From a virus: a stretch of 64,000 nucleotides of DNA. Of the stretch, positions 20,650 to 62,766 are shown piece after piece. Position 1 is the first letter of the stretch; every line of letters starts with the position of its first letter. The translations under genes were made by a program, and so were the position numbers. The DNA is taken from IMG/VR virus record IMGVR_UViG_3300025674_000019, positions 62,001-126,000 of that record; one strand, given 5' to 3'. Below the pieces are notes generated by a model, which saw only the letters and a list, made by a program, of their open reading frames with translations, was not told the DNA's origin and did not search any database.

Positions 20650-20655
20650 ATTTCC

Positions 20656-21477: not shown

Positions 21478-21484
21478 TTTTTTA
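21471..21484 (-). promoter_or_regulatory. Candidate -1 ribosomal frameshift site (A9 run)
   Basis: On the minus strand, nine A (21475-21483) precede C and the TAG stop of the upstream frame, giving an A-AAA-AAC type slippery site. Immediately after it, TAGTTAG and CTAACTA can pair around an 8-base loop, and CTACC/GGTAG follows. The stem is closer to the slip site than usual, so its role as stimulator is unsure. Confidence 0.55.
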
Positions 21485-22433: not shown

Positions 22434-22460
22434 AAGTACTCCTGTCTCTTTACTAATACT

Positions 22461-22472
22461 AATTATATAGAC
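22461..22472 (-). promoter_or_regulatory. Candidate late promoter (TATATAATT)
   Basis: The minus strand reads GTCTATATAATTAG about 30 bases upstream of the 22433 start. Similar TATA-containing elements lie at 29527, 34153, 40886 and 41698. Confidence 0.3.
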
Positions 22473-28400: not shown

Positions 28401-29507
28401 AGTAGTTTGGGCGCTAGCTGTTTTCTCGTACTTCTCCACATCAACTCCCCAGTTCCTCAGAGCAGCAGCTCTACGCTTAGTAGGGTTCTTTAAGTACTGA
28501 GCTAAGTGCCTAGCCTTAAAGCTCTTCCAGCGCTTGATCTGCCTCTCATCATCGTCTGTACGGCGTCCCCTTGAGTACCTCTCGTACCACTGCAACCAGC
28601 CCTTAGGGTCTTGCTTATTGATCCAGTGCTCAGGCCACTCCTTCATGGAAGCTTCACTCGGAGCGTCACCGTACACTTGGTCGTAGACTCCTAGCTCCTT
28701 TAGTTGCTCTGGAGATAAGTCTGGGGTGAAGTCGGATTCACTAGCACTCTTCTCCAGTATGGCCCTATGTAGCTTAAGCCTACCAGCAGCTTCTTCTGCA
28801 AGCAGTGCCTCATATACATCTAGCTCTTCAGAGCCAAGAACCTCAGGAGCTTCTTTAGAGATAAACTCGCTACGCATTAGCTGAGGCCCCCACTCAAAAT
28901 TAGAGGGATCAAGCTCGTATAAGTGACCCTTGCGTCCTTTGTAGACCTTCTCAAAAGCCCCTGGGTACTGCTCCGTCATATGAAGAGTAGGATCACCATT
29001 ATAGGTACTTTGCTCAAAATCGGAGTCTCTCCAAGGTGCCATAAATGAGATAGCTTGTGCTCTACTAGGGGTACCAAACACTACAGGCTCATCTTCTGCT
29101 AAGTAGTGAGGCCTAGCTTCAAACTTATCTATCTTATTCTGACTTCCGTGGTAGATACGAGAAGGGGCTTCAGGGGCATCAAATTGTTTTTGATACTCTA
29201 TTTTTTCCTGCACGGCTTTTCTAAGTGCGTTCGCCTCTTCTTCAGACATATCTGAGTAGGTAGCAGAGGTCTTCTCGGCTATAGCCTCAGCCAGCTTATC
29301 CTTCTTGCTTCTATTAGTATCCCTACTGACTACTCGCCAGTTGCTAGGGTCGTTACTACCACCTCGGCTCAAAGGCACTTTGTGGTCTACTTCTTGGCCA
29401 GGCTTAGTGTCAGAGTTTCTATTAGCCTTGTTACGCATGGCTCTGCGCTTCTTTTGCTCTGGCTTAGAATGATACTCTTTGTATTCTTTCTTGTAGTCTC
29501 TAGCCAT
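22473..29507 (-). CDS. Giant multi-enzyme polyprotein, candidate virion-delivered effector set (2344 aa)
   Basis: ATG follows GGAGG. Modules in order: HNH nuclease (1-70; DH at 41-42, N56, N65); Arr-like ADP-ribosyltransferase fold (~115-245; YHGS, VVFGT, GHLYELDPSNFEWG); 94-residue Gly-rich membrane cassette (361-454); unknown domain (460-630); second cassette (643-736); unknown domain (750-950); PAP2 phosphatase (~970-1165; K1073-x6-RP, PSGH 1106-1109, SR-x5-H-x3-D 1141-1152, all residues present); helical region; Gly-rich membrane region (~1500-1580); PTPVV linker (~1835-1905); membrane helix (~1967-1986); DUF5872-like (~2002-2067); flavodoxin-fold FMN reductase (~2098-2280). Joints carry EKTS-A, EKSAS, EKTASA, LKTAGLASAI, SKTAG, RKSAS, QKNAS and SEKTS. 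I infer maturation cleavage and injection; no cleavage is shown by sequence alone. Confidence 0.85.
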   Translation of the reverse strand: MARDYKKEYKEYHSKPEQKKRRAMRNKANRNSDTKPGQEVDHKVPLSRGGSNDPSNWRVVSRDTNRSKKDKLAEAIAEKTSATYSDMSEEEANALRKAVQEKIEYQKQFDAPEAPSRIYHGSQNKIDKFEARPHYLAEDEPVVFGTPSRAQAISFMAPWRDSDFEQSTYNGDPTLHMTEQYPGAFEKVYKGRKGHLYELDPSNFEWGPQLMRSEFISKEAPEVLGSEELDVYEALLAEEAAGRLKLHRAILEKSASESDFTPDLSPEQLKELGVYDQVYGDAPSEASMKEWPEHWINKQDPKGWLQWYERYSRGRRTDDDERQIKRWKSFKARHLAQYLKNPTKRRAAALRNWGVDVEKYEKTASAQTTNQGPGLGAYAAGAAAAGALGYGGYRAYKAYRGNNTSQPKAYSPAQPQESSWAPWLAGAGLTAAGAYLGRGKLKGLASAIKKKPAGTAGTAGTAAMSDSQKLHQHLTKRMGYTEEQASSYVRGKDPFKFDQAKADASAKRFSQDQEALGKVLDAKQKEFEAYYGLGALRNRDASFPVQDAYAALYGRQGAIPHIANSAMAAVNPGKTGLYHKRVLRETLRKRGHTEWQDSLGLQDNVIPYLMQQGQKGVAGRIDSFLAGLPAHLKTAGLASAIIEKTASAQTTNQGPGLGAYAAGAAAAGALGYGGYRAYKAYRGNNTSQPKAYSPAQPQESSWAPWLAGAGLTAAGAYLGRGKLKGLASAIKKKPAGPPPPPPKPAPAHAPAPATAPTQSADDLVDFHAMFTISPEKLEGYLKNRGINPASASAEALGKEYKLGLEELNAILQESSMGMGARSITARGVQNPAFAPGPQQIRWGGLGRAPTASTPHSLNDFAAISVYPISVTGIPRKQAEKLMASRSAVASQGWLKQGLKANPDMVITRGPVSYGDVPLIKLVENKTLEEGLKKYHAGMREGAYSSSGYTPEMFSGALKTAGLASAIANLKYTTEVAPDFQPYIKQKRKVLTIPTEYLPKPDYPPNDSEATREELLEVKYHMDNPIIDEPTMMMCDREPEQLFYIVCEELGIDPLKDQAEGIYEDFNKIAFDLKYIFLRPRPWSLAEYHGVNLNVMPPPSSDTPSYPSGHAMMGYGLQAFYTEKYPEYSELWEKLGHTIQHSRLQAGLHFPSDNLYSKQIVEFVMAREDAGSRLKKAIVEKGLRSKTAGVLGNYIKQKNLETLEQAYLSLIGAGHVKDITPFVQKTDNLTRRQALGRILWETAQAPRKVKNIQREVSRAVNPFSQHASLSETAANVMAMYNPLAAPLSPQGTLAVAELPGLLLNLENIGSRLGRTLDPRGWQTVHKDIANRARQAIDKVDDLSYVAKDTQRAIDAYANKGVAAGHREVLNALQDGAIRRGTTLTDQVAQKAQTLIPSVGAVEAGLGRELRTRSSLAIAERNRLRSMTPEQRRQWNRENTISGRLAASIEKRVQGAKQKARGALLGATMRFGPKSTGGAPKRLYSQAPMESVMRKSASMKFRAFDAATGALAGYAASGENKGAQGALAGAIGGLALGAGGRKYINSRYKDLGSTGANWMNALVGTGMAGGGVAASVFAGGDGTAMKNNYKLSSAIASSMQKNASVTKQAKLKGNALETVQRLVEGAKAANPQASAEQITSSVVNSLNKGRSGGGGLKILENELNMGRVGSERIHSSQIGAAHPLQREIEMYVQKQDPLYQRWNELTFSSKDPLGINHMWEHNLKPLSPDSLGQLRREYQAAEGARAEAMRRVKEDNRIRRLRRDKARAQERAKAQVQAQLAAPAPAPVVLPTQTTERGQRFLFEPAAGPVRRVSASAESAAVAPRSEQLALDFSAPVVRPKPTPVVAPTPVVTPTPVVAPTPVSRAPVSPTPVVTPTPVVAPTPVSRAPVAPTPVVAPTPVVTPTPLERVVQRQQRMQPVDTALSKVSPPPSTQATESLREAVASQPTMASAAEEVAAAAANNPELRRALMLGIPVAGLGAAGLYAMGGSEKTSKAKKPKGTATKRDPKKWAAAKARAKAKMGGKWSARAAQLAVKYYKDSGGRYKGKKPTAKNNKLKKWTKQDWQWSGERKKEGSMTYASDLKKLAAAKSLASEAAKNRLRVAILSGSTGNDPEELSRSRALAETYRDYLESQGAEVDWMDMRDMGDMPDTYDWDTDWYDDYKKRLTDADAMVLSTPVFNYGPSGRVMQFLHRTLDKENQQYKPYALLSGAGTPRSALALGGLANQLDTEIKGIGIGGGVQVAGDEFNVETGEMDPGIVSRANENAAKLLQVARAMRSKQDLTTKEAKSKGVYLPAKSIDALKSSKKGRNKLKAAIRKKNKATREGEQHADHGLHKGKKRSKLGD
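23285..23297 (-). promoter_or_regulatory. Strong internal ribosome site inside the polyprotein
   Basis: AAGGAGG lies five bases before an in-frame ATG (codon 2075), just ahead of the FMN-reductase module. It could yield a separate 270-residue protein (22473-23285), or it may be a relic of a formerly independent gene fused to the module upstream. Confidence 0.5.
27300..27581 (-). repeat. 94-codon cassette, copy 2
   Basis: This encodes EKTASAQTTNQGPGLG to LKGLASAIKKKPAG and is nearly identical to 28146-28427, with the visible changes silent. It contains two Gly/Ala-rich hydrophobic stretches. Confidence 0.9.
28146..28427 (-). repeat. 94-codon cassette, copy 1
   Basis: First copy of the duplicated membrane cassette. 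Both copies start with the joint motif EKTASA and end in LASAIKKKPAG, so the duplicated unit runs from joint to joint. Confidence 0.9.
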
Positions 29508-49053: not shown

Positions 49054-50034
49054 TTAGACGATTGGGTTGAAGTTATGAAGTTTAATAATGCTGTTAGCGT
49101 TACCGATACCGATACCGGGCGCGCTGTAGGACCAGAACTCGATCATGTCAGCTTCTTGCTTAATGAAGAGAGTTGCATCCTGAAGAAGGAAGAAGTTCCC
49201 GAGGTAGTTCTGCGGAGCAAAGAGATAGATCTCGTTGTCCTCTACGATGTCGTTCTTGATGGTGGTGATAACAGGAACCCCAAAGAGCTTATCCTCACCG
49301 TCCATGCCGTTGTCGTAGTGGCGGCTCACAACGTCATTACCAACGTCAGTGTGGTCGAACTTAAGAGCTTCCATGAAGGTGCTCTTAGTCATAAGAAGCT
49401 TGCCGATAGGAAGCCTCTTGCTCGTCATGCTCTGGAAGAGCTGCGCGATGAGCGACTTAGAGAGCGGCTTCTCATTGCAGTTTAAGCGGTTATTCTCTCG
49501 AATCTGCTGCTGCGTAAAGAAAGTATCCGCAGCATTATTACCTAGAGTAGCGATACCACCAACCTGGCCCATAGCCGCGCCAACGGTCTCCATGAACTTC
49601 TTATCTTCCTCGTTCGCCATGTCCTTGACCGAGTTATCGGTGAGGATCTTGCGAATGTCGTTCTGATAAGTGAGGAGCTCGAACTTGCTCTTCGTGAAGT
49701 GCTCAGTCTCGATCTTACCGAAGCTAACACTATAGCGTGGGCCACGGAAGAACGTACGCTGACCGGAACCCTTGAAGGTCACGAAGGTAGCGACCGAATC
49801 GGGCTCCTTCTCGATGATCTTCTTGGGCTGGTCAGTGTGCTCATCGCGGTCGATCTCATCTGCACCAATCTCGACTGGCTCTAGGATCTCACGCGCAAAG
49901 CTCTCCTCGCGAAGCTTGCTGCGGATAAAGCGGCTGCCCTCGTCCTGGGCCTCCTTGACTCGGCCCTCATCCAGCTTACGAACGAAGCTCTGATTGATGA
50001 ACTGGGCACTAATTCCTGAAGTCTCAACATTCAT
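49054..50034 (-). CDS. Major capsid protein, HK97-type fold
   Basis: The protein has an N-terminal arm (FVRKLDEGRVKEAQDEGSRF), a beta-rich segment (VTFKGSGQRTFFRGPRYSVS), a helical spine (TDNSVKDMANEEDKKFMETV) and a C-terminal axial domain (KLFGVPVITTIKNDIVEDNE). The order resembles HK97-fold capsid proteins. A decoration protein and prohead protease gene lie upstream and a strong terminator lies downstream. I see little of the K-T-A-S motif here. Confidence 0.75.
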   Translation of the reverse strand: MNVETSGISAQFINQSFVRKLDEGRVKEAQDEGSRFIRSKLREESFAREILEPVEIGADEIDRDEHTDQPKKIIEKEPDSVATFVTFKGSGQRTFFRGPRYSVSFGKIETEHFTKSKFELLTYQNDIRKILTDNSVKDMANEEDKKFMETVGAAMGQVGGIATLGNNAADTFFTQQQIRENNRLNCNEKPLSKSLIAQLFQSMTSKRLPIGKLLMTKSTFMEALKFDHTDVGNDVVSRHYDNGMDGEDKLFGVPVITTIKNDIVEDNEIYLFAPQNYLGNFFLLQDATLFIKQEADMIEFWSYSAPGIGIGNANSIIKLHNFNPIV

Positions 50035-50603: not shown

Positions 50604-50921
50604 TTAGGAAAGGATCCAAGATGCAAATGCGTCATCAGCGCGGCCTTGGCCTCTGCCAGCGCTTGCAAGTTTAGTAGCCCCTCCTAATTGGGGAGCATCA
50701 GTACCAGCAACCTTAGTAATAAGGTCGAGAGTGTCGTCATCAAGTTGGCTAAGCTTCTCTACAGCGTCATCACCTAAATGGGAGAACTGCTGAGCGAGGG
50801 GCTCAACCCTTTTCTGCCTTTCAGCTTGCTTAATAGTATTAAGCTCATCCTGAAGAGTAGACTTCTCTTCAGCAACAGCCTCAAGGACATCAGCTACCTT
50901 TAGTAGGAAATCTGAGTTCAT
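50604..50921 (-). CDS. Head core protein with K-x-A motifs (105 aa)
   Basis: Helical, charged protein with recurrent LLKVADVLEA, VEKLSQLDDD, ITKVAGTDAP and TKLASAGRGQ. The repeated Lys-hydrophobic-Ala motif groups it with the other core proteins to the right. Confidence 0.65.
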   Translation of the reverse strand: MNSDFLLKVADVLEAVAEEKSTLQDELNTIKQAERQKRVEPLAQQFSHLGDDAVEKLSQLDDDTLDLITKVAGTDAPQLGGATKLASAGRGQGRADDAFASWILS

Positions 50922-51058
50922 TGTAGTTTTCTCCTAAGAAGTTCCAAACCGGTAGCTGCAATCGTAATAGAGGCAAGCTTTTTCTGCTTGTTAGCCTCGA
51001 CTTGGTGAGCATACTCCCTAATTAACTTAGCGAGTTTTTCTAGCTTAGCCGCGTCCAT
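50918..51058 (-). CDS. Small core protein (46 aa)
   Basis: ATG overlaps the preceding gene by 14 bases and its TGA overlaps the next ATG (ATGA). The peptide contains LEKLAKLIRE and QKKLASITIA, two copies of the motif in 46 residues. It may be a fragment-like scaffold piece. Confidence 0.65.
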   Translation of the reverse strand: MDAAKLEKLAKLIREYAHQVEANKQKKLASITIAATGLELLRRKLQ

Positions 51059-51275
51059 TGAGACCTCCTACGAAAGTGTATAGATCCTGGTATGTAGGTT
51101 CAATATTTACAGAACGTACTACGCCAGCAAGCTTTACTAACCCCTTTACTTCGTCGTTAGAGAGGTTTAAAGAAGCAAGCTTTTCACTAGCTTCTTCTTT
51201 TACAGGAGCTTGTAGGCTAGCACGAGCTTCTTTAACCAAGGAGTCCATAGCCGCTGATAGCTTTACCTTTGCCAT
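51045..51275 (-). CDS. Small core protein (76 aa)
   Basis: Contains VKEARASLQA, SEKLASLNLS and LVKLAGVVRS, with a C-terminal Tyr-rich end. One-base overlap with the upstream gene. Likely part of the head core or an internal protein. Confidence 0.65.
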   Translation of the reverse strand: MAKVKLSAAMDSLVKEARASLQAPVKEEASEKLASLNLSNDEVKGLVKLAGVVRSVNIEPTYQDLYTFVGGLNGRG

Positions 51276-51640
51276 TAGTAACTCCTCCTAGAAGGCTTAG
51301 CTGCAGACATAATCATATTTAGATCGTCTGGTGTAAAATCAAACTGCCCATACCCGGGAGTGCTAGGGCTGCCCAAGGATTCGGGAAGTTTAGAACCAGC
51401 GTAACCCGCTGCCACACCTAAGGCCGCCGCCACAGCGGGGGAGACATAAGCGGGCTCAGGGTCATCAGCAGTAGCCCTACCTAGAGCAACCCCACCTAAG
51501 CCTAACCCTAGCGCGCTTCCTCCTATGGCTAAGTTTTTTAAGGAACTAGCAATTTTTTGCTGTACCTCTAAAACCTCTTCTACGCCATAAGAAGATGCAA
51601 GCTTTTCTATAGCTGCCTTAACCTCAGGTGATCTAGGCAT
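51275..51640 (-). CDS. Glycine-rich membrane-like core protein (121 aa)
   Basis: The N-terminus holds IEKLASSYGV and QQKIASSLKN; two Gly/Ala-rich hydrophobic stretches follow (AIGGSALGLGLGGVALG and AAALGVAAGYAGSKL). It resembles the membrane cassettes of the polyprotein and could help DNA or cargo cross the host envelope. Confidence 0.62.
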   Translation of the reverse strand: MPRSPEVKAAIEKLASSYGVEEVLEVQQKIASSLKNLAIGGSALGLGLGGVALGRATADDPEPAYVSPAVAAALGVAAGYAGSKLPESLGSPSTPGYGQFDFTPDDLNMIMSAAKPSRRSY

Positions 51641-51642
51641 GA

Positions 51643-52263
51643 TTATCCCGCTAGCTTTGCTAGGATGTTGTTGCCAACTTTGAAGCCTAGGCCTTCATAG
51701 TGGCTAGCAAGCTTAACGAGGTCAGACGCAATTTTCTCTGCGTCCTGCTGCCCCTTGATGTAAGAAGCAACCTTAACGGCGTCTTCTTGGCCCTTGTTAA
51801 AAGCAGCTACTTTATGCATCTCTGCAACCTTATCAAAAGATGCAGTTTTAACTTGGGGCTGGGCCCCCTGTAAGGACCGCATGGTATTCCTGTACCCAAG
51901 CTCCATGGCCTGCTTGATGAGCTCAGGAGAAGCCTGCTCCCCGTGAGAAGCAGTCTTAACACGAGGGCTAGCAGCCTCATAAGCGTTCATCCGGTGGATA
52001 AAGCCGTCAGCTACAGCAGCTCCGTAGATATGCGCCTCTTTGACGAGGGCCTCTTGCTCTGCGTTAGCAAGGTCGCTAGCGATCTTCATTAGATCGCCTG
52101 CGGGCTGAGACTGATTGTCAGAAGCTACTTTCTCTGTAGTAGAGCCAAGTGCTCTGTCGATAGCGCTGCTTAGGGAAGAGCTTCCCTGGCTAGTGCTGGC
52201 ATCAGCCGAAGCGGTCTTCTCGGTATCGCCAGAAAGTGAATTTAGAATCTCTGAAAGTTCCAT
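51643..52263 (-). CDS. Core protein with about twelve K-x-A-S motifs (206 aa)
   Basis: In order: EKTASAD, EKVASDN, MKIASDL, VKEAHIY, VKTASHG, VKTASFD, DKVAEMH, HKVAAFN, VKVASYI, EKIASDL, VKLASHY and AKLAG. No other gene in the window has such density. If the motif is a protease site, this protein would be cut into small peptides, as T4 core proteins are. It lies next to the prohead protease gene. Confidence 0.75.
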   Translation of the reverse strand: MELSEILNSLSGDTEKTASADASTSQGSSSLSSAIDRALGSTTEKVASDNQSQPAGDLMKIASDLANAEQEALVKEAHIYGAAVADGFIHRMNAYEAASPRVKTASHGEQASPELIKQAMELGYRNTMRSLQGAQPQVKTASFDKVAEMHKVAAFNKGQEDAVKVASYIKGQQDAEKIASDLVKLASHYEGLGFKVGNNILAKLAG

Positions 52264-52272
52264 TGTAGCTCC

Positions 52273-53757
52273 TTAGGAATGTATGAGCGCTTGACCTAGG
52301 TGAGTAAAGTACTTATCAGGGTCCGTCTTAAATAAGTTTATGTTCCCTAGCTCTTGCACGCTAGAACTCTTTATGAACCCAGAATGATTATTTAAGACAT
52401 CTGCAGCCCTAGACTGTAGGTATGCCAGCTTATTGCTAGAGTTTAAAGCTTTTCCTACATAAACTAAGGATGCTAAGCAAGTAATGCCGGCAACCTTATA
52501 CATCTCTGAAGACAAACCCTCGGCAGAAGCGTGCTTAAGGCTATACCCATGCGATGCTAGAACCACCCTGACTTCAGGGGCATTCGAGCTCTCTACAGCC
52601 ACATCCGGTAGCCCCGACATGTCAGAAACTGCCTCTGCAATCTCTGGGTGCTTAGACAAGACTCTAAGCATGTCTGACTGCAAAGATACGAGCTTACCTG
52701 CTAATCCAGAAGGAGCCTTAGACCCTGTAAGCTTCATAAACATAAGGTCTAGGAACTCGGGGGTCATTAGGAGGATACCATTATCTCCAAGCATGCTAAG
52801 AGACTCTGACAGGTTCAGGGAACCTAAATCTCTTATAGCGGAGTCCGGGAGCCTCTTGTAGCTAGATACAATCTTAGGAGCTAAGGTCTTAAGCCACTTT
52901 ACTGCTAGGTGCTTTTCCCCTTCTCCCATATCTTCAGTAGGTATGTGGTCTAAGCCTACTGCTACACCCTCTATAGTCTTATCTATATCGGCGGCTTTAT
53001 TAAGGTACTTAGCTATAACAGTCAGACCTGCAGCCTTCTCAGCAAGGTAAGCACTAGATTCTCCCCGCTCGCGAGCTCCGCCATCAAAAGCGACTTTCTT
53101 CAGCATGTACCCCGTCTTATCCGCAGGTCGGTAGACTACAGATATATCAAAGAAGTTAGGGGCAGGGTTATCTGCGCATACCACCCTGCCGTCAGGGTAA
53201 ATATCGTTCATTTGGTACTTAAGGTGCGTACAGTACTGCGCCCTAGTTGGGGCCTTATTGCCGCAGATGCTGCAAACATCGTATTTAATACGACAGCCCA
53301 TGCTTACAGCTACGTCTTTTTGCTCCCTTACCTTCTGAACTATGTCGGGACACAGAGCATCATCTAGTTGCATGATGATCTCTACTCTATGCATATCGTG
53401 GTTGTAAAAGCTCTTTATAACCTTACCGATAGCTTTTGCGGGGTCTTTGTTGACGTGTGACTTAAACACATGGGCGTTAGACTCAAAAGTATGGTGATGC
53501 TTTATAAGCTCAGACTCTCTGAACGCATCGCCATTTCGGTTAGGGCCGTAGTATTCACTAGCGCCCATTGCTAGGACTAGTATACTAGTCTTGCCCGGTT
53601 CTTTCTTTACATGCTTAGAGTACTCAAGGGCCTCTGAAGCTACCTTCTCCATGGAGAGGGTGTCGTAGTCTAATAGCCTAACAGTAGGCTCGATGCCTCC
53701 CGATTTAGATACTAAATAAGGGTCTGTTTCTACTATTTTCTCTAAGTAACCGGGCAT
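52273..53757 (-). CDS. Prohead maturation protease, fused to long C-terminal region (494 aa)
   Basis: The N-terminal half follows the prohead-protease layout: GASEYYGPNRNGDAF, AHVFKSHVNKDPAKAIGKV (probable catalytic His, H101) and KDVAVSMGCRI (probable catalytic Ser, S152). A zinc-like insert (CSICGNKAPTRAQYC) is unusual. The C-terminal half is helical and has several K-x-A motifs (EKAAGL, NKAADI, YKVAGI, NKLAYL), perhaps a covalent core segment. It is the best candidate to cut the recurrent motif. Confidence 0.7.
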   Translation of the reverse strand: MPGYLEKIVETDPYLVSKSGGIEPTVRLLDYDTLSMEKVASEALEYSKHVKKEPGKTSILVLAMGASEYYGPNRNGDAFRESELIKHHHTFESNAHVFKSHVNKDPAKAIGKVIKSFYNHDMHRVEIIMQLDDALCPDIVQKVREQKDVAVSMGCRIKYDVCSICGNKAPTRAQYCTHLKYQMNDIYPDGRVVCADNPAPNFFDISVVYRPADKTGYMLKKVAFDGGARERGESSAYLAEKAAGLTVIAKYLNKAADIDKTIEGVAVGLDHIPTEDMGEGEKHLAVKWLKTLAPKIVSSYKRLPDSAIRDLGSLNLSESLSMLGDNGILLMTPEFLDLMFMKLTGSKAPSGLAGKLVSLQSDMLRVLSKHPEIAEAVSDMSGLPDVAVESSNAPEVRVVLASHGYSLKHASAEGLSSEMYKVAGITCLASLVYVGKALNSSNKLAYLQSRAADVLNNHSGFIKSSSVQELGNINLFKTDPDKYFTHLGQALIHS

Positions 53758-53763
53758 AAAGCT

Positions 53764-54447
53764 TTACTCCCTATCAAGAAGGCAATCTACAAGAAGAAGC
53801 GCTGCCTCTTTCTGCAAAGGAGTTCCTTCTGACCTTTCGTATACGTCTAGGCAAGCCATGAGCGAAGCCATTTTAGGCATAGAAAAAGTAGTTCTGGGGG
53901 CGGATTGGCCGGATGTGCTACCGCCCTTACCCCCTAAGTAAGAGCCTAGACCACTGGCAGCCGCTAGCGCAGCTATAGCTGGGAGAGCATAGTCTTTAAG
54001 GGTCCCGCTAGCCGTCTCTTTAGCCTTTCGAACGGAATCGTCTACTAGCTTGTCAGCTGCATAGTACCCCGCGGTAGCTAGGCCAGCCCCTGTTCCTAGA
54101 CCATACCCTACGGATTTAGCTACACCTGTTACCTCAGGATTACTTTTTAAATAGTTAGAGACATTTCCAAGGTACTTCCTAAAAGCCTTCTTCTCTCGCC
54201 CGTACCCTGTATACTTCTCCATCTCCGAGTGCTTAACTTCTCTAGTAGAGGGGGATTCCGAAGCGTACTTCTTTTTTTTAGCTGCAAGAGCTATTTTTTC
54301 TACAAACTGCAGAGCTAGGGCATCCGCAGAGGAAGCCACTTTACTGCTAAGGAAGGGATTAGTCTCCCCTAAGCTATCCGCTAGCCCGTAGGCGGAAGCG
54401 CACTTGGTAAGGAGGCTAGAAGCCTCTGACAAAGAAGACCCTAGCAT
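53764..54447 (-). CDS. Core/internal protein with membrane-like segment (227 aa)
   Basis: Motif copies LTKCASAY, SKVASSAD, EKIALAAK, PKMASLMA and QKEAALLL are spread along the chain. The middle (SVGYGLGTGAGLATAGYYAA, YALPAIAALAAASGLGSYLG) is Gly/Ala-rich and hydrophobic. Its place between the protease and scaffold genes suggests an internal head protein. Confidence 0.62.
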   Translation of the reverse strand: MLGSSLSEASSLLTKCASAYGLADSLGETNPFLSSKVASSADALALQFVEKIALAAKKKKYASESPSTREVKHSEMEKYTGYGREKKAFRKYLGNVSNYLKSNPEVTGVAKSVGYGLGTGAGLATAGYYAADKLVDDSVRKAKETASGTLKDYALPAIAALAAASGLGSYLGGKGGSTSGQSAPRTTFSMPKMASLMACLDVYERSEGTPLQKEAALLLVDCLLDRE

Positions 54448-54668
54448 TAGAGCCTCCCAAGTTCTTGAATAGATGCGGAGATTAGCCCTGCTTCTTTCCT
54501 GCGAAGGTAGGACTTAGAAGCTATAAACCCTACAGCTCTGTGCAGCTCAAGATCTTCCCCTAGATCAGTGGATACTTTTGTTGCCCCACTGCTCACCTGT
54601 GGAAAAAGCTCAGCTACTTTAGCCATACCTTCGTCAGACTGTAAGTAGTTCTCAATGAGACTGGACAT
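54447..54668 (-). CDS. Small core protein (73 aa)
   Basis: ATG and the upstream stop are adjacent, and its stop overlaps the next ATG. Contains MAKVAELFPQ and a helical C-terminus (SKSYLRRKEAGLISASIQEL). Function unknown. Confidence 0.58.
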   Translation of the reverse strand: MSSLIENYLQSDEGMAKVAELFPQVSSGATKVSTDLGEDLELHRAVGFIASKSYLRRKEAGLISASIQELGRL

Positions 54669-54669
54669 A

Positions 54670-56097
54670 TTAACCTCCGTAGGGGTTGAGCTTAGAGTTG
54701 TTCAAAGAGGTAAGCGCCTTCTCTGCTTTCGCCATAGCTTGAATACTGGTAGCATCCAGGGTGGGGATGCCTCCATCGCTGTTATAGAGCATCTGCCTAG
54801 TGTGAGAAGTCAAGAAAGGCACGTTAGTAGATAGCTCGGGAGCTATCTTACCTATAGTATTTACAGCCATAAGAAGATTATTCTTGCCGGATGCGAGCAA
54901 GTCAGGGTTTGACTTGAGCATCTGCGCCGTAGCTACTCCGCGCTGCTGCTTTAGAGAGTTCAGACGATCCTCCTTCTCTCTTGCAGCCATTGAGTCTTCT
55001 ATAGAGTCACCAATGAAGTCCATAATTCCGTCAACGGTTTTCTTACGAACCTCTTTAGCAGTCTCGTCTACCGCCTGAATACGGTCTCCAAGAGGAATAA
55101 ACTTTCTTCCAAGCTGGTAGCTTAGGCCCCTAGCTGTATCTCCCATTAAGGAGTTTGCACCAAGTGCAAGTCCTAGGCTAGGAAGACCGATAGCTGCAGT
55201 CTTTACAGAGCCAGTCTTTAGGTACTCTAGTACGGAGGAAGCCTCTACGTACTGAGAGAGTTTCTCTAGGTACTCCTGGACTTCTGCCATCCCCTCAGAG
55301 TTCTTATTAGAAACATACCTATCTGAGGCAGTTTTAATCGTCTCGGAGCTTACATTAGAAGATAAACTAGGCATCCCAAGCTTAGATCTTACTGCTTGAA
55401 GAGCTACAATAGCAGGCTTTCCGAAGTTAGCTAGAGCCTCTTTCTCAAAGAGAGGATGCCGCTCCCTTGAGTACATTCCCTTAAAGGTAGAGGCCAGCTT
55501 TTGAGCTAAGTCATCGCATCGGTAGTTGGCAGCAGCCATTTTATCCAGTAAGAGCTCTTCAGTTTTCTGCCGGTCAAAAGGCGAAAGAGTCTCTGCGGTA
55601 CTAAGAGTTGCTGAGGCTACTTTCTCCTCTGAGCTTCCATTTAGATCGCTAGAGCTTAGGATATCCCCAAGGTCTAGCTTATCCAGCTTGGTAGGGGTTA
55701 TGTCCTCGTAGAATCGGCTATCTTCAGAGTCAAGACCAGGGTCTCTTTTAATAGATTTAGTAACCTGGGTACCTTCAGGGCCACTACTAACAGTTACTGT
55801 TAGGCTCTTTGAAGAGCTAAAAGCGGGCTTGGGGTCCTCTCCTAGGTTTTTCTTGATGATCTCTTCTGGATCAGCAACTTCGAAGTCTACGAACCTATCG
55901 TCACCAGATGTTCCTTTGAACTTCTGAAGGAACATATCGGTGTTGGCCATCTCAGTCAGGCGGCGTATCTGCTCTGGATTCATAGGATTACCTTTAAGTA
56001 CTCCTAGAACAGAGTCAACTAGCCTGTCACCTGTCTGCATAGACAGCATGACACTATGGTTAGCCAACTTTTCTAAATCATGCCTAGAGTACTTCAT
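54670..56097 (-). CDS. Scaffold/core-like protein (475 aa)
   Basis: Long helical protein with motif copies at DLEKLANHSV, EEKVASATLS, DKMAAANYRC, AQKLASTFKG, TIKTASDRYV, LEKLSQYVEA and SVKTAAIGLP. The C-terminal third (residues ~330-475) is a charged helix with Asn-rich segments. Overlaps the gene at 56094 by four bases. Probably part of the prohead core. Confidence 0.6.
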   Translation of the reverse strand: MKYSRHDLEKLANHSVMLSMQTGDRLVDSVLGVLKGNPMNPEQIRRLTEMANTDMFLQKFKGTSGDDRFVDFEVADPEEIIKKNLGEDPKPAFSSSKSLTVTVSSGPEGTQVTKSIKRDPGLDSEDSRFYEDITPTKLDKLDLGDILSSSDLNGSSEEKVASATLSTAETLSPFDRQKTEELLLDKMAAANYRCDDLAQKLASTFKGMYSRERHPLFEKEALANFGKPAIVALQAVRSKLGMPSLSSNVSSETIKTASDRYVSNKNSEGMAEVQEYLEKLSQYVEASSVLEYLKTGSVKTAAIGLPSLGLALGANSLMGDTARGLSYQLGRKFIPLGDRIQAVDETAKEVRKKTVDGIMDFIGDSIEDSMAAREKEDRLNSLKQQRGVATAQMLKSNPDLLASGKNNLLMAVNTIGKIAPELSTNVPFLTSHTRQMLYNSDGGIPTLDATSIQAMAKAEKALTSLNNSKLNPYGG

Positions 56098-56849
56098 CCT
56101 TTAACCTCGCCATCTAGTTCGTCAGCAGTTAGAGTCTCGTCGCTACCCTCAAGCTTAATTTTAAGCTCTGCAAGGGCGTTTTCCATGCCAGAAGAGTTTT
56201 CTATACTTCTAACCATTTCTACACTCTTTAACACTGCGGGAGCCCATGCTCGCGCTTCCTTAGCCTCTTGGCTAGACAGAGGGCTTAGCCGGTGCTCTCT
56301 ACTTCTCCACATAGAATCTTGCAAAACTCCTTGTACGGCGTCTGTAGGGCTACCGGGCCCCCTATCCACTCCTATCTTCCACGCTATGTAGTCAGCTCCT
56401 AGGTAGTGCCCCCAAGAGAGCATTTGCTTCTCAAACTTGTCGGACTCTGTATCCTGGGGGAGGGACCTAATATACGCTATCTTAAGCAGAGTATTTCTAA
56501 AGACTTCTGTGTCGAAGAATAGCTCCTTATATGCGTATATAGCTTCCGTGCTCTCACCCGCTATGTCTGATATAGTAGAGATAGGGGCATTGCTGAATAG
56601 GAGGCCTCTAAGTATAGCTCTACTAGCGGGAACCCTATCCATAAGTAGGGCGACCCTGTACTCCGAGTGCTTGGAGTCTTCAGGCTCCCTAAATACCTCT
56701 ACTAGCGCTTCCTGCCCTAGGCTATACGCCTTAGGCAGGGCTTTTCTCTTGGAGTAGTTCTCAGCCGATAGAAAGTCTACTACCTCCAAGTACCTCCAAG
56801 AAGGAGACCTTACTTCAAAAGAAGGTATTGTCTTACGCTGAGAACCCAT
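56094..56849 (-). CDS. Possible DNA-binding helical protein (251 aa)
   Basis: ATG at 56849 follows GGGG at nine bases; the frame continues upstream into the previous gene. The text RGLLFSNAPISTISDIAGES followed by TEAIYAYKELFFDTEVFRN is a helix-turn-helix-like unit that I recall from other large phages near terminase/portal genes. The rest is helical. Function uncertain. Confidence 0.55.
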   Translation of the reverse strand: MGSQRKTIPSFEVRSPSWRYLEVVDFLSAENYSKRKALPKAYSLGQEALVEVFREPEDSKHSEYRVALLMDRVPASRAILRGLLFSNAPISTISDIAGESTEAIYAYKELFFDTEVFRNTLLKIAYIRSLPQDTESDKFEKQMLSWGHYLGADYIAWKIGVDRGPGSPTDAVQGVLQDSMWRSREHRLSPLSSQEAKEARAWAPAVLKSVEMVRSIENSSGMENALAELKIKLEGSDETLTADELDGEVKG

Positions 56850-58896
56850 ATAAGTCTGCCCCTTCCTCAGGGACATTCTTCGTCTGGTGTAGCCGAAGGA
56901 TAATGTCCCCCAGGCCATGGAATACTTTCTTGAGAGAGTTCTCAAGCTTTGCGTACTCTTCCGGCCCTATCTGCTCAGATAAAGTATAGTCATTCATCTG
57001 CACAGTAAGCAGGATCCTCCCTAAGGAGTCAAGAGCCTCGCTGAGCTTAGGGATGTACTCAGAGGTTAGTTCTTTGAGCCCAGCTTGCTCTAGAAGAACT
57101 GAAGCTACTGTAGCATCTAGGACTTTTTGGTCATTAACCCGAGCGGCCTCCTCCATCATAACTTGCTGCTCCATTGGTATTCCCGGAGGAGTCATAGGAG
57201 GAGCCCCAGGAGGAGCCATAGGAGGAGCCATAGGAGGAGCCATAGGAGGAGCCATAGGAGCCATGCCGGGCGGCATTGGAGCCTCCATCCCTGCCTGGAA
57301 GTCTGGAGCAGGAGCACTGGGCTCTCCGCTGAAGATAGATCCCAGCTTTAAAAGATTGGTTCTAGGCACTAAATACGCGGTTGTGGTTGCGCTAGAAGTA
57401 AGGCCCCGTAAGAACTCCTGGGAGGACTTGACGCTAGCACCCATAGAGGCAAGCTTCTCCACAGCTTGGAACTCTTCTCCCACATTACGGCCATCAATAA
57501 CATACTCTCCGGCAGATCCCCTACGGGCCCGCACAGAGGCTGAAGCGTTCTTATTTAGACCTTCAGTAACGAGCTTACGGATAGCGTCTGGGTCAGACAT
57601 AAAGTCTGATTCACTAAGCTGGTTCCTTAGGTACAAGGGCTTGTAAGTGCTAGGAATGAATACAGTAGACTCTCCCTTAGGCCTATATGGCTTGAAAGAG
57701 GCTCCGTCTTTTGTAACCACTGCAGTTAAGCCGTGGTCCGCTAGCCTAGCAGTAATCCGCCCGGAGCTGCTGCTGCTAAGATTGTCCAGTTTTTCGGGAA
57801 GGGTACATCCTTGTACTTGACCATCAAGAACTTTAATAAAGGTAGCGGTGCCCGCCCTGTATACAGGATCAGCCTTCATTCTCTTAAATAGGGCTGAGGA
57901 CTCAGAAATGCCTTCAGCGGTGTCTAGCGCACTAACTTTGTCAGTAAGAAGGTAGTCCCCGTTCTCTAGTATACATAGGAACTTCCGGGTGGCCCTCTCT
58001 CCGCTTAGGTCTGCAGGCGCCCTAACTACGTAAGCCTTAAGAGTTTTACCGTCAGACTTTAGCAGTTTGTACACACCAGATGTTGTAGGCTCACTAGCCT
58101 TTATTGGCGTCTCCTGCGCAGTCACTACCTCAGCAGCATTCTTACGGAAGTCTGCTGCTACGTAGCCAGACTTAAGCGCCTCTTGGTAAGCAAGCTTATA
58201 CCTATCCCCGAAAACCGATTTAAACTCTTCAGGAGAAGAGAAGCTGCTAAGAATTGAGTAGCTAGCGGATGCCGTCTTTTCGGATTCTTTAGCCTCGGAG
58301 AGGGAGTCGATAAAATCCCTGCCGTGGTATTTGACCCCGGACCTGAGAACTTCTTCGCTAGTCTTGAGGATCCCCTTAAAGTGAGACTTAACCTCATTAG
58401 GAAGCTTGGACATAAGTAAGGGCAAGTCATAGCTAGCAAACTTACCGGAGGTAGTAGGAGGGGAAGTTATACTGCCAACGTCAGGAGTTCCTAGGTCTTG
58501 CAGGCTAACTTCTTTCTGCGATTTTCCTAGGTCGCTACTAGAAGGAGAGCTAACAGTCTTCAAGTACTTCTGCGTCAGCGGGTAGAAAGAGCCGCCTGTG
58601 GGGTCAAAGAAAACCTCTGGGGACTTAATCTTACCGCCGGCAAGCATAATAGGAATATGAATCTCCACTTCACCTATTAGGCAAATAAATATCCCTGAAG
58701 CTGTATTTTTCTCAAGGGAGCTCTCTAGAGTCTTAAAGTGAACTATAGAGTTAGCTAACTCCGGGCTCTTAGCCCCCAAAGTAGCGTGGGCTTTCTCACT
58801 AAAAAGCTGCTCAAACTGCTGCTTCTCTGGAGAGCTGTCTCCTTGGTTTACCATAAGGCTTCCAGTACGGGGAGAGATAGCTGCTAGTTTAATCAT
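56833..58896 (-). CDS. Large head-associated protein with MAPP repeat (687 aa)
   Basis: ATG at 58896 follows AAGGTAG and overlaps the previous gene's stop by eight bases. Motif copies IKLAAISP, LEKNTASGIF, SEKTASASYS, RKNAAEVV, NKNASASVR and EKLASMGAS occur along the chain. Near residue ~575 a Met-Ala-Pro-Pro tandem repeat forms a flexible linker. The C-terminal ~120 residues are helical (KELTSEYIPKLSEALDSLGR). Not recognised as a portal; an internal or core role is more likely. Confidence 0.55.
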   Translation of the reverse strand: MIKLAAISPRTGSLMVNQGDSSPEKQQFEQLFSEKAHATLGAKSPELANSIVHFKTLESSLEKNTASGIFICLIGEVEIHIPIMLAGGKIKSPEVFFDPTGGSFYPLTQKYLKTVSSPSSSDLGKSQKEVSLQDLGTPDVGSITSPPTTSGKFASYDLPLLMSKLPNEVKSHFKGILKTSEEVLRSGVKYHGRDFIDSLSEAKESEKTASASYSILSSFSSPEEFKSVFGDRYKLAYQEALKSGYVAADFRKNAAEVVTAQETPIKASEPTTSGVYKLLKSDGKTLKAYVVRAPADLSGERATRKFLCILENGDYLLTDKVSALDTAEGISESSALFKRMKADPVYRAGTATFIKVLDGQVQGCTLPEKLDNLSSSSSGRITARLADHGLTAVVTKDGASFKPYRPKGESTVFIPSTYKPLYLRNQLSESDFMSDPDAIRKLVTEGLNKNASASVRARRGSAGEYVIDGRNVGEEFQAVEKLASMGASVKSSQEFLRGLTSSATTTAYLVPRTNLLKLGSIFSGEPSAPAPDFQAGMEAPMPPGMAPMAPPMAPPMAPPMAPPGAPPMTPPGIPMEQQVMMEEAARVNDQKVLDATVASVLLEQAGLKELTSEYIPKLSEALDSLGRILLTVQMNDYTLSEQIGPEEYAKLENSLKKVFHGLGDIILRLHQTKNVPEEGADLYGFSA

Positions 58897-59536
58897 TGGA
58901 ACTACCTTTTTGTAAATGTGAGAATAAGCTAAATGTGCCCGCGCCACTAAGATCATGCAGTGAGTGGCTAGCTAGTCCTGGAGCAAGGTTCTTTAGAGTC
59001 CTCAGCTTTGACGTGCTATTAGCCAAAGCATTGCTAGTAGCAGCAACTTCTTCTACTAAGTTAGGCAGCGCTGCCAGGGCAGACGCTGCGGCTAGACCCC
59101 TTAATAGGCTTCTTTTGTTTGAGTCTTCTACTGCAGGAGAGTATGTGAGAGCCGCTGCGCCTGGGAGTGCGGCTGTACCTAGCAGCCTAGTGAGGGCTTT
59201 GGAGCCTTTAAGGATACTCTTATAGGTGTCTCCAGCGTCGTGGAGCCTTTGGGCGTGCCCCACCTCGTGAGCAAACACATCAGGATCTGAAGTACCCAGA
59301 GCTAAGCGCTTTTTATCTATATCGTAAAAGCTGCCACCGGAAGACTTGCCTACCTGCATATCTGCTAAAGAAGGCTCGTCTTCTATGAACTTCTTAGAGT
59401 AAGAATATATTCTTACCATGTCTTCTGGAGAAGCATTTAGGGCCTTAGCCGCCCTTGTGAGTCCAGAAGCAGTAGTAAGGGCCCCTATAGTTAGCGGGGC
59501 TGCCTTACCTGCAGGCTTTTGAGATAATCCCCGCAT
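58889..59536 (-). CDS. HExxH zincin-like protein with membrane segments (215 aa)
   Basis: Residues 90-99 (HEVGHAQRLH) form HExxHxxxxH, a zinc-metalloprotease signature. Before it, YDIDKKRLALGTSDPDVFA looks like the strand preceding the active-site helix. Afterwards come hydrophobic Ala-rich stretches (LLGTAALPGAAALTYS, LRGLAAASALAALPNLVEEV). It is unlike the prohead protease, so a second proteolytic function in the head, or after injection, is possible. Confidence 0.62.
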   Translation of the reverse strand: MRGLSQKPAGKAAPLTIGALTTASGLTRAAKALNASPEDMVRIYSYSKKFIEDEPSLADMQVGKSSGGSFYDIDKKRLALGTSDPDVFAHEVGHAQRLHDAGDTYKSILKGSKALTRLLGTAALPGAAALTYSPAVEDSNKRSLLRGLAAASALAALPNLVEEVAATSNALANSTSKLRTLKNLAPGLASHSLHDLSGAGTFSLFSHLQKGSSND

Positions 59537-59559
59537 AATGTAGGCCCTTACTTTCTATT

Positions 59560-60273
59560 TTACATAGGAGGAGGCATAGCCCCCGGTGGAGGGCCCATTG
59601 GAGGCCCCATCGGAGGGCCCATTGGAGGGCCCATCGGAGGAGGACCCATTGGAGGGCCCATCATAGCTGGGTCCATAGGAGGGGGGCCCATTGGAGGTGC
59701 GCCCGCCCCTCCTTCTAGGAACTTCTGCTGAAGCTCAGTGAGTACCCCTAGGATCTTAGCTAGGCTAGAGATATCCTGGGAAGTGATCTGAGAGCCAACG
59801 AGCTGCACTTCCTCGGGAGTTGCAGCGTCCGCAATCTGAGCAGCCTGAGCCATCTTCTCAAAAGGCATCTGAACTAGCCTTCCCGAGTCGATAAAAGCTT
59901 GGTGCATGCCCATGATGTAGGCTTGCTTAACAGAACTTTGCTTCTCTAGAGCTTCTATAGCTTCTTCTGCTCGATCTATCTCATCTTGGTAGCTTCTGTA
60001 CCCCCCATAACCACCACCCGCAAGGATTCCCAGTAGTGCCGGGGTCTTAGAAAACCTGCCTAGCGCAGCCGCGCCTAACGCAGCCCCGCCTATCCCCCCA
60101 ACGGCACCATACCCTAATGGCTTAAGTACCCCTCTAAGAGTGCCTTCAGGTAGAGTCGTAACTTCATCGATCTCTTCCTCAGACATTCCTGCAGCTCTGA
60201 GTTTAGACTCTGCGTCCATAGCACCCATAGTGCCATAGTTTAGCCCTCCTCGGGCTTGCTTAATGAAGGACAT
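59560..60273 (-). CDS. Head-associated protein with GPPM repeat (237 aa)
   Basis: ATG at 60273 lies two bases after the upstream stop. A Gly/Ala-rich hydrophobic region (YGAVGGIGGAALGAAALGRF) is followed by a helical part with SVKQAYIMGMHQAFIDSG and EKMAQAAQIA. The C-terminal ~40 residues are tandem GPPMGPP repeats. The combination of membrane-like and repeat regions resembles 51275-51640 and 19267-20649. Confidence 0.58.
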   Translation of the reverse strand: MSFIKQARGGLNYGTMGAMDAESKLRAAGMSEEEIDEVTTLPEGTLRGVLKPLGYGAVGGIGGAALGAAALGRFSKTPALLGILAGGGYGGYRSYQDEIDRAEEAIEALEKQSSVKQAYIMGMHQAFIDSGRLVQMPFEKMAQAAQIADAATPEEVQLVGSQITSQDISSLAKILGVLTELQQKFLEGGAGAPPMGPPPMDPAMMGPPMGPPPMGPPMGPPMGPPMGPPPGAMPPPM

Positions 60274-60274
60274 A

Positions 60275-61417
60275 TTATGCCCCAATCCCTAGGCGGCGAA
60301 GAATGAGAGCTGCTTTCTTCTCCTCGTCCTCTGCTGCCTCCACCTTAGAGTGAGGGGCGTTCTTCTGAAGAGAGTTAACCTCTTGCTTTAGCTCTTTGAG
60401 CTGCTCATTCTGCTTCTTCTCGTGGACCTCAGTCTGAAGGAAGCTGTCAGACTTCCCCTCAGCAGCCTCTTTGATTCGGCCAATGTAAGCTGCTCGCTCT
60501 GGGCCGTTCATCCCGACCATAGTGCGGAGAGCTGCTAGCTTATCGCTAGGTGCAAGATAATCAGGAAGGAAGTGGCCTACCTCTGATGCAGTCTTTTGGA
60601 CTAGGTAAGCAAGAACTTCCATGTCCGCACCCGAAGAGCTCTCTGCAACGGCGCTAAGAGGCATAACAGCAGTCATGCCTGCATCCCCGGTGCCGTCAAC
60701 TTTCTTGACTGGGTTCTCTCGGACAGCGCCCATGTTTTCTTTCTCTTTATCTCCGGGATTAGCTGGCGCCGGGTTAGCGTCGTTCTCAGCAAGCTTACGA
60801 AGAAGATCGATAGCGCTCTGAACCTGGCTTACTTTCTCTCCTTTAGCTTTCTCAGCTTTTTGCCCGTGGTGCATAGACACCTCTGTGGTGTCAGCAGCTA
60901 CAGCATCTAGCTTTTTGCTAGGGAGAGCAGCAGTGGCTGCGTAGCCTTCGCTCTGCCTAGGCCCAGCCTCAGTCTCTAGGTCTCCTGGGTTGCTAGGAGG
61001 AACATTTGCTACAGCAGAAGCACGCTTCAGCCACTCAACAGCCATAATAGCCTGAGCAACCTTCTCATCGTCGGAGCCTTCGTTGTTCTTAACAACAACC
61101 TGGGCTAGAGCGTCAGAAAGCTCTTCTGCTGCCTCGCCTGCCTCTTCGCTCTTAGATGCGTACTCCTGAAGCTCCTCAATAGCCTCCATCGTAGAGTCGC
61201 TAGCGCGGTCATCCTCTACAATGTCAGTCATGATCTCAGAGACTTCATCCTCGGACATCTCCTCCACATCCTTGTCATCCGCCTTAAGCGCGTGCTTACG
61301 GAAGGCCAAGTTCGCTGCGATCTTCATCTGAAGCTCGGAGCTGTAGGGAGGCATGGCGCCACTGGATACCAGGCTTCGCTGTAGCCCGTGAATAAATGCA
61401 GTTTTTAGTAAGCTCAT
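60275..61417 (-). CDS. Scaffolding-like acidic protein (380 aa)
   Basis: The N-terminus has MSLLKTAFIHGLQRSL, the same motif class. The middle is very acidic and helical (EEMSEDEVSEIMTDIVEDDR, AEELSDALAQVVVKNNEGSD), then Ala/Lys-rich with VQKTASEVGH and DKLAALRT, and the C-terminus is a charged coiled coil (KKQNEQLKELKQEVNSL). This profile is that of a head scaffold. Confidence 0.6.
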   Translation of the reverse strand: MSLLKTAFIHGLQRSLVSSGAMPPYSSELQMKIAANLAFRKHALKADDKDVEEMSEDEVSEIMTDIVEDDRASDSTMEAIEELQEYASKSEEAGEAAEELSDALAQVVVKNNEGSDDEKVAQAIMAVEWLKRASAVANVPPSNPGDLETEAGPRQSEGYAATAALPSKKLDAVAADTTEVSMHHGQKAEKAKGEKVSQVQSAIDLLRKLAENDANPAPANPGDKEKENMGAVRENPVKKVDGTGDAGMTAVMPLSAVAESSSGADMEVLAYLVQKTASEVGHFLPDYLAPSDKLAALRTMVGMNGPERAAYIGRIKEAAEGKSDSFLQTEVHEKKQNEQLKELKQEVNSLQKNAPHSKVEAAEDEEKKAALILRRLGIGA

Positions 61418-61497
61418 ATTAAGTTCTCCGAGCTATGAAGGGAGGGTAAAGACTACTTACAATGTTGTGTAGTAGCACATTACTCTTCAAGATTAAA

Positions 61498-62766
61498 CTA
61501 TCTTCGTGTGTACCGCTGGTACGGCCTTACGTACCTGCCATACTCATCGACGTACCTTCTCTGATTAGGGTACTGCTCATAGTAGTCGTAAGTGGAAGGA
61601 AGAGGCGGGCCCACAGGGGTCTCAGCCTTGGTTCCAACTAAATTACCTAAAGACTCACCCGCAGAAGCTAGGTAGTGCGAGGGATTTATAGCTTCTGTTC
61701 CAGGAACTATGCCCCAGGAAAGCATTCCCATAGGCCAAGTAGCAAGAGTACCAATTCCTTCGCCAACAGCGTGACCTACGTTACCTAGGTAGGTTCTACC
61801 TGAGCCTGCTTCAGGGCCATAGGCCAGTGCGGACCCTACTGCCGCTATAGGCATACCGCCTATGAGGCCTACCTTACCGACTTGCTGTAAGCTCCTTCCA
61901 GCTAGGCCTAAGCCTTCACGGGCGGCATCAAGTTTTCGCCCATCTTGTAATGCCGACCGTAGTCCTTGGTATCTCATACTCACACGAGGGTCCACCGCTA
62001 AGGCTCCCCGTACAATGCCCCCCTTACCAAATACTCCTCCTTGTAGAGCTCTGGCCCCGAGGACAGGGGCGTGGCCCATGTACAAGCCCGCCCCAAGGCG
62101 ACCGTAAAGAAGTCTCTCAGGTATTGATTGAAACTGCCCTTTTTGAGTCAGTACATCTGCTGCTCTTCTAGCGTAGTAGCCACTCTGCTGCCCTAACCTT
62201 TGGCCTAATGTGGTATTACCTCTAATAACTTCTTTTACTCTAGACTTGCCTATTTCTTTAGCAGACTTTGCAGCAGCTTCTGCTCTCTTAAGATCTGCTG
62301 CTAAAGCAGTAGTATCTTGGCCCGCCGCCTGAGCAGCTCTCAGTTCTGTTCTTAGCCGGCTAACATTAGCTTGCGCCTGCTCCAAAGCTTGAGTGCTAGC
62401 TTGCTCAGCTCTTTGAACTTGGCCAGCCACATCCTGCCCGTAACTTTTAATCCTAGACTGCTCTAAAGACCTGGCTTTTGCTTCTGCAGCTGCAGCCCCT
62501 CTTCTTTCAGATTCTAGAGCCTGTCTTGATTTTATGAATCCCTGCTCGCCCTCTCTTAGGCCAGCCGCCCTATTATACGCGCCTCTTTCTATTCCCGAGC
62601 CCCTATGGATGTTCTTTTCCATCCACTTCTCAAGCCTGGGACTAGCTTTTATAACGTCGTCACTGAGGCCTACAAAAGGAGCTTTTGCGTAGCTAAGAGC
62701 AGTTCTAATCGCAGAGGCGTCTTTCTCCATTCCTAAGGGAAGGGGAACTAAGTCCATGCTGTCCAT
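61498..62766 (-). CDS. Large Ala/Gly-rich structural protein (422 aa)
   Basis: A motif copy near the N-terminus (LGMEKDASAIRTA) is followed by a long alanine-rich coiled coil (residues ~80-190), a helical part and a Gly-rich, membrane-like segment (VGLIGGMPIAAVGSALAYGP). The C-terminus is Tyr/Arg-rich. It overlaps the RNAP beta' stop by one base, so both belong to one operon. Function unknown. Confidence 0.55.
   Translation of the reverse strand: MDSMDLVPLPLGMEKDASAIRTALSYAKAPFVGLSDDVIKASPRLEKWMEKNIHRGSGIERGAYNRAAGLREGEQGFIKSRQALESERRGAAAAEAKARSLEQSRIKSYGQDVAGQVQRAEQASTQALEQAQANVSRLRTELRAAQAAGQDTTALAADLKRAEAAAKSAKEIGKSRVKEVIRGNTTLGQRLGQQSGYYARRAADVLTQKGQFQSIPERLLYGRLGAGLYMGHAPVLGARALQGGVFGKGGIVRGALAVDPRVSMRYQGLRSALQDGRKLDAAREGLGLAGRSLQQVGKVGLIGGMPIAAVGSALAYGPEAGSGRTYLGNVGHAVGEGIGTLATWPMGMLSWGIVPGTEAINPSHYLASAGESLGNLVGTKAETPVGPPLPSTYDYYEQYPNQRRYVDEYGRYVRPYQRYTRR

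Follow-up and report, generated by a model that had tools for sequence, protein, structure and literature searches.

A Lys-x-Ala motif as the probable recognition and cleavage signal of a phage prohead protease

In the phages T4, phiKZ and SPN3US, the prohead protease targets a tripeptide of the form P3-x-P1 with Glu as its last residue; these enzymes fragment scaffolds and trim themselves, the capsid and internal proteins, and in SPN3US the motif comes with a preference for Ser at P1' (PMC9026906, PMC10052503, PMC5694885). In herpesviruses, scaffold processing involves one cut that follows the protease domain and another close to the C-terminus of the scaffold (PMC4498786). This study addresses another short motif, Lys-x-Ala (K-x-A), in the phage represented by IMG/VR virus record IMGVR_UViG_3300025674_000019. 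The window analysed is a stretch of 64,000 nucleotides, bases 62001-126000 of this 133,289-base record; coordinates are those of the window unless the genome is named, and (-) denotes the minus strand. An earlier note on this DNA had seen a distinct maturation-cleavage or packaging signal in a recurrent tetrapeptide of its head and cargo proteins, a proposal which the enrichment, the head/tail contrast, the conservation and the positions of K-x-A support. Judged from its sequence, the motif is very probably the recognition and cleavage signal of the phage's own prohead protease, encoded at 52273-53757 (-).

The strict form of the motif, K-[TVILM]-A-[SAGE], was tallied in each of the 64 predicted proteins of the window against composition-preserving shuffles. 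The 12 head/core proteins at 50604-62766 contain 31 strict motifs against a shuffle mean of 3.25 (sd 1.78, maximum 12), and none of 2,000 shuffles reaches 31. The 21 proteins at 30346-50588, which comprise the tail, the major capsid protein (MCP) and decoration, contain none where 1.8 are expected, just as had been claimed for the tail proteins, and the MCP has a single K-x-A outside the strict form. Head and tail counts differ with a Fisher exact p of 5e-14. The cargo genes at 19267-29507 hold 10 strict motifs against 2.5 expected, again with 0 of 2,000 shuffles reaching the count, and the left part of the window holds 4 against 1.4. The earlier note had found the motif in almost every product of the head block, which is right for the block as a whole and too broad for its members, as the strict form is absent from 56094-56945, 58889-59536, 59560-60285 and 61498-62766. 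Similarly, its statement on cargo is correct for 21471-22433 and 22473-29507, while 20656-21378 has no strict motif and 19267-20649 only one. The about twelve copies that it had counted in 51643-52263 amount to 11 strict motifs (0.26 expected) and 13 K-x-A altogether. In the window, K and A make up a larger share of head proteins than of tail proteins, which would be in line with a structural or compositional artefact, arising from Lys/Ala-rich coiled coils or DNA repeats. Composition-matched shuffles, however, exclude such an effect, and DNA repeats are ruled out as the source, since different copies encode K, T/V, A and S with different synonymous codons, and the motif copies of the head block do not stem from tandem repeats. 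The same two observations argue that selection acts at the protein level.

Relatives of the phage were obtained by searching IMG/VR with a three-sequence alignment of the protease, which gave 244 metagenomic loci, of which 80 were retained; a scan of the viral contigs with a single protease sequence gave no relatives. Homologue families were assembled for every window protein from 19267 onward and are named here by the window start of their member. In an unbiased scan for gapped patterns, EK.A, K.AS, K.AE or K.A belonged to the highest-ranking patterns in most of the 80 loci, and K.A-type patterns did likewise in two isolates, Salmonella phage Arash and Vibrio phage D69. The motif is enriched 17.6-fold in family 50604, 22.5-fold in 51643, 8.7-fold in the protease, 9.9-fold in 54670, 4.6-fold in 56833 and 7.5-fold in 60275. 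Families 56094, 58889, 61498 and RNA polymerase beta', though adjoining, are not enriched (about onefold or less); the best-sampled tail families (35613, 38052 and 38705) fall below expectation, with too few homologues or counts in the other tail families. In the capsid-protein family the strict motif is scarce, and a single K-x-A is conserved. Both the enrichment over composition-matched shuffles and the contrast between head and tail are thus seen not only in this phage but across about 80 relatives; in Arash and D69, too, the enrichment falls on these head families and spares the tail families.

The motif was refined on 227 proteins of the six enriched families (50604, 51643, protease, 54670, 56833 and 60275). 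The K-x-A spacing (i,i+2) occurs 1,820 times against 701 expected, a ratio of 2.60, and none of the other K-A spacings, with 0 to 7 intervening residues, is enriched (0.85-1.11 of expected). The helical spacings i+3, i+4 and i+7 are among these, so that coiled-coil or helix periodicity is ruled out, and an artefact of structure or composition becomes extremely unlikely. As a consensus, the refined motif reads [LMFI]-[E/x]-K-[VTIL]-A-[SAE]. With Ala taken as P1, L, M and F are preferred about threefold at P5 (I 1.7), E 3.0 at P4 and T or V 2.6 at P2, and the P1' position favours S (3.1), then E (2.0) and A (1.6), and disfavours P, I, L and K. The probability of S after A is 0.216 within K-x-A vs 0.055 elsewhere, and in non-substrate families S is not among the favoured P1' residues. 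The motif K is kept in 41% and the motif A in 45% of aligned pairs; K or A elsewhere is kept in 27% and flanking residues in 20.5%, so the motif is conserved above its surroundings. The P1' residue also differs among relatives, with K.AE in some and K.AS in others (L067-L073 and L079 compared with L010, L017 and L020).

The protease itself, a product of 494 amino acids (aa), matches phrog_18299, head maturation protease, with E=2.6e-12, and its gene lies inside the head cluster beside the scaffold and capsid genes, in the order protease, 51643, 50604 and MCP 49054. The catalytic domain covers approximately residues 41-223 and is followed by a K-x-A-rich C-terminal extension of 271 aa. The residues H101, S152 and D204, the last one in an FFDIS motif, are invariant in 49 homologues and form a putative catalytic triad that fits the superfamily. 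In an hhalign comparison S152 falls on residue 140 of T4 gp21, with a weak score. AlphaFold2 gives pLDDT of about 95 over most of the stretch 42-220, with a drop to about 60 or less on either side; the T4 gp21 structure 5jbl_B is the only phage protease among the Foldseek matches shown (prob 0.91, TMt 0.54, E 0.2), and the protease profile against PDB chains gave only chance matches of coiled-coil type. A near-invariant CxxC...CxH cluster (C162, C165, C176 and H178, residues 162-178) is found inside the catalytic domain and looks like a small metal-binding insert, with comparable C/H residues visible in the proteases of phage G and Rhodococcus phage E3.

The catalytic domain is bordered by K-x-A on both sides. 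On the N-side, KVA/S at residues 38-40 (53638-53646 (-)) is a predicted autocleavage site with the bond after A40; K-x-A is present here in 61 of 62 homologues, and the block pLDDT climbs from 47 to 83. On the C-side, KVA/F at residues 221-223 (53089-53097 (-)) is the corresponding predicted site, with the bond after A223; 58 of 62 homologues have K-x-A at this border, and the last strand of the domain is 217-223. Between the two borders K-x-A is scarce (34 vs 58 expected). Since the sequence does not reveal the exact bond, the motif might also be cut elsewhere, for instance behind K or between x and A, or be cut by another protease. The protease sequence, nevertheless, is conserved through A223 and diverges directly after it, and the preference for Ser, Ala or Glu at P1', together with the P3-x-P1 layout, fits the Ala bond. 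Arg was tried in place of Lys within the clade and rejected, as R.A[SAG] is at 0.82 of expected; R does not replace K, and trypsin-like cutting is therefore unlikely. The location of the protease gene within the cluster of its substrates speaks against another protease. Either version is, on balance, unlikely, and the scissile bond is most likely the one after Ala, with [LMFI] at P5, E at P4, K at P3, V/T/I/L at P2, A at P1 and S/A/E at P1'.

Homologues of the protease occur in Salmonella phage Arash and Vibrio phages D69, D148 and D181 (46-49% identity over about 240 aa) and, more distantly, in Bacillus phage G (about 32% over 164 aa), actinobacteriophages and Erwinia phages. The C-side border K-x-A is present in Arash, D69 and G, and phage G keeps LEKVA|SKSG there. 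In Arash, D69/D148/D181 and G this protein is annotated only as structural, hypothetical or gp-numbered, and the annotation shown records no cleavage motif. K.A enrichment is weak or absent in three further distant relatives, Mycobacterium phage I3, Rhodococcus phage E3 and Erwinia phage Yoloswag. The head genes of phage E3 (L091) have a mild R-x-A-S excess, 9 vs 2.1, and its protease may have exchanged K for R in its specificity.

The predicted substrates include the scaffold-like and capsid proteins. The 206-aa product of 51643-52263 (-) is core/scaffold-like, and its family of 27 proteins holds 159 strict motifs vs 7.1 expected. The putative scaffold at 50604-50921 (-), with 105 aa and located just upstream of the capsid genes, belongs to a family of 21 members with 51 strict motifs vs 2.9 expected. 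It has K-x-A at residues 70-72 and 84-86, followed by a conserved C-terminal tail, xDxxFxxWIxS; the last K-x-A lies 13-29 residues from the C-terminus in 21 of 21 members, and in most members the C-terminal tail resembles D/E-x-x-F-x-x-W-I-x-S. The MCP at 49054-50034 (-), of 326 aa, has an HK97 fold (Foldseek HK97 capsid E=1.5e-9; NCBIfam NF042927 E=8e-8, below the curated cut-off). Its single K-x-A, the predicted cut site, is KEA at residues 27-29 of the N-arm (DNA 49948-49956), conserved in 47 of 48 homologues, the exception being a mis-called start, and the MCP body is depleted in K-x-A, 25 vs 64 expected.

The motif could instead be an uncut docking or capsid-targeting short linear motif, which recruits core and cargo proteins to the prohead; the first K-x-A often lies within residues 5-25, like the N-terminal capsid-targeting sequences of T4 (PMC9026906), and cargo genes at a long distance from the head block have the motif as well. 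Such a role explains poorly the up to 13-15 copies per core protein, the copies at both protease borders and those near the scaffold-like C-terminus, and the depletion in the MCP body and the protease core is what cutting would predict. Moreover, T4's own targeting sequences are cleaved. Docking without a cut is accordingly quite unlikely, and cleavage rather than packaging alone is the preferred reading because K-x-A marks the borders of the protease domain, the capsid arm and the scaffold-like C-terminal tail. Several points still weigh against cleavage by this protease. In many substrates the first K-x-A lies near the N-terminus, where a targeting signal could equally be placed, and the N-terminal copies may have an additional targeting role. 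With an E-value of 0.2, the fold match to T4 gp21 falls short of significance, and no Pfam peptidase family (S77/S78/S80) was found for the window protease; one of the 49 homologues matches S78, with E=0.022. In the MCP, the KEA site lies within a confidently predicted helix (26-44), and P2 is mostly E, not the residue preferred elsewhere.

Like T4 with its gp21, which cuts [LI]-x-E in the substrates gp22, gp67 and gp68, the phage has the protease gene in the head cluster, a scaffold with many P3-x-P1 copies and putative catalytic residues of the Ser-His-Asp type; scaffold and core proteins are motif-rich in both, and tail proteins are not. The fold match to gp21 is weak. Unlike gp21, the predicted P1 is Ala and P3 is Lys, [LI]-x-E is not enriched in the head proteins of the window (35 vs 38), and the protease bears the long K-x-A-rich C-terminal extension and the Cys/His cluster. 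With phiKZ gp175 ([SA]-x-E) and SPN3US gp245 (A-x-E with P1' Ser), it shares the P3-x-P1 layout and, for SPN3US, the Ser at P1'; autocleavage of a C-terminal extension, predicted here, and multiple sites per propeptide are further likenesses (PMC10052503, PMC5694885, PMC9026906). Those two enzymes cut after Glu, whereas [SAG]-x-E-[SAG] is at 0.88-1.02 of expected here. As a control, the same statistics were applied to T4, where they recover the known signal: [LI]-x-E counts 31 vs 13 in gp67/68/21/22, while the tail proteins give 27 vs 26. For SPN3US, gp53/54 have 12 A-x-E-[SAG] vs 3.2, likewise the known signal; neither control shows K-x-A-[SAG] enrichment. In the present clade the Glu motifs [LI]-x-E and [SAG]-x-E range over 0.88-1.24 of expected, and A-x-E alone reaches 1.41 in the head proteins of the window. 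Among the patterns tried, then, K-x-A-[SAG] stands at 4.4-4.7 times expectation and the Glu motifs at 0.88-1.41. Because the architecture is like that of T4, phiKZ and SPN3US, with K-x-A and a preference for Ser after it, a K-x-A/S-specific prohead protease is the simplest reading.

The processing by herpesvirus assemblin (S21) takes place at an Ala/Ser bond, and its layout is alike, with release and maturation sites in the protease-scaffold precursors. Unlike the Ser-His-His triad of assemblin, the third invariant candidate here is Asp (D204), and the scaffold has a separate gene. A herpes-type (V/L/I)-x-A-S specificity was rejected, as this pattern is at 0.81 of expected once a preceding K is excluded. 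The herpes likeness is therefore one of working alike and not of membership, given that the herpes residue preference is not seen and that the putative third catalytic residue is Asp.

If the K-x-A/S protease is real, the prohead core would take in the protease together with the scaffold-like proteins, and the active protease would free itself by cuts after A40 and A223, on either flank of the catalytic domain. It would then chop the core proteins 51643-52263 (up to 13 sites), 50604-50921, 54670-56097, 56833-58956, 60275-61417 and 53764-54447 into small peptides or trimmed products, release the C-terminal tail of the scaffold-like protein, probably trim the MCP after A29, and process packaged cargo such as 22473-29507. 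The tail proteins, which carry no signal, would stay outside the prohead.

The other head/core proteins carry the motif to different extents. The 475-aa product of 54670-56097 (-) has 5 strict motifs (family 169 vs 17.0 expected), and the 707-aa product of 56833-58956 (-) has 3 (family 70 vs 15.3); the true start of the latter may be M21, which would place KLA/A at residues 3-5. The 380-aa product of 60275-61417 (-) has 4, with its first K-x-A at 5-7 (family 47 vs 6.3). The 227-aa product of 53764-54447 (-) has 7 K-x-A and no homologues in the fetched loci, and the small head protein of 121 aa at 51275-51640 (-) has EKLAS and QKIAS near its N-terminus (family 7 vs 1.8). A longer variant, K-x-A-[FYH]-x-x-G, is seen in 60275-61417, 59560-60285 and genome 126542-127315 (LLKTAFIHGLQRSL, VKQAYIMGMHQAF and EKIAYDLGCAIAL), twice near the N-terminus, and is possibly a targeting helix joined with a cut site. 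RNA polymerase beta'/beta genes lie to the right of the head block, and 45307-48186 matches tail and tail-fibre families (PHROGs).

In the cargo block, 22473-29507 (-) encodes a modular protein of 2,344 aa with the Pfam domains HNH (6-107), PAP2 (1071-1156) and FMN reductase (2100-2217). It has 7 strict motifs vs 2.0 expected, and its K-x-A-[SG] at residues 253, 362, 633, 644, 958, 1185, 1493 and 1599 all lie outside the recognised domains; as these domains span only 13% of the chain, cutting between the modules is compatible with these positions and not proven by them. A packaged polyprotein is possible. Two near-identical modules of about 90 residues, 361-451 and 643-733 (EKTASAQTTNQGPGLGAYAAG...IKKKPAG), each begin at K-T-A-S and bear a glycine-rich, probably membrane-spanning stretch. 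The 320-aa cargo protein at 21471-22433 (-) matches phrog_220, minor head protein and DNA pilot, over residues 100-176 (E=1.9e-20), and has K-T-A at residues 16-18 (EKTAE) and 63-65 (EKTAA). The product of 20656-21378 (-), in the same block, is a small methyltransferase-like protein, spermidine-synthase-like by eye. A position-weight model of the motif, trained on other phages only, flags candidates beyond the head block, among them a 548-aa product of unknown family at genome 20601-22247 (-) (L006:601-2247), with 8 sites where 0.28 are expected; although far from the head block and outside the window, it is predicted to be a further head or cargo protein.

No earlier report of a Lys-x-Ala prohead motif was found in the open-access literature, and a literature search found no paper on phage Arash. 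The results suggest that K-x-A is a specificity variant of a known process, unlike the Glu-type proteases studied so far. Taken together, and only tentatively, they could describe a large clade of tailed phages, for the most part uncultured, with an Ala-directed (K-x-A/S) prohead protease, a herpesvirus-like layout of scaffold maturation, and a packaged HNH/PAP2/FMN-reductase polyprotein that the capsid protease would separate in the head before ejection. If true, the motif would provide a cleavage signal readable from sequence for viruses whose head proteins are almost all called hypothetical, and the proteins that enter the prohead, the sites of trimming and the cargo delivered to the host could be listed. 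The Lys-x-Ala type would also join the Glu specificities of the superfamily, as in T4 and the giant phages, and the evolution of specificity would become testable by comparison; the K.AE vs K.AS preference, for instance, could map the P1' specificity onto the protease tree.

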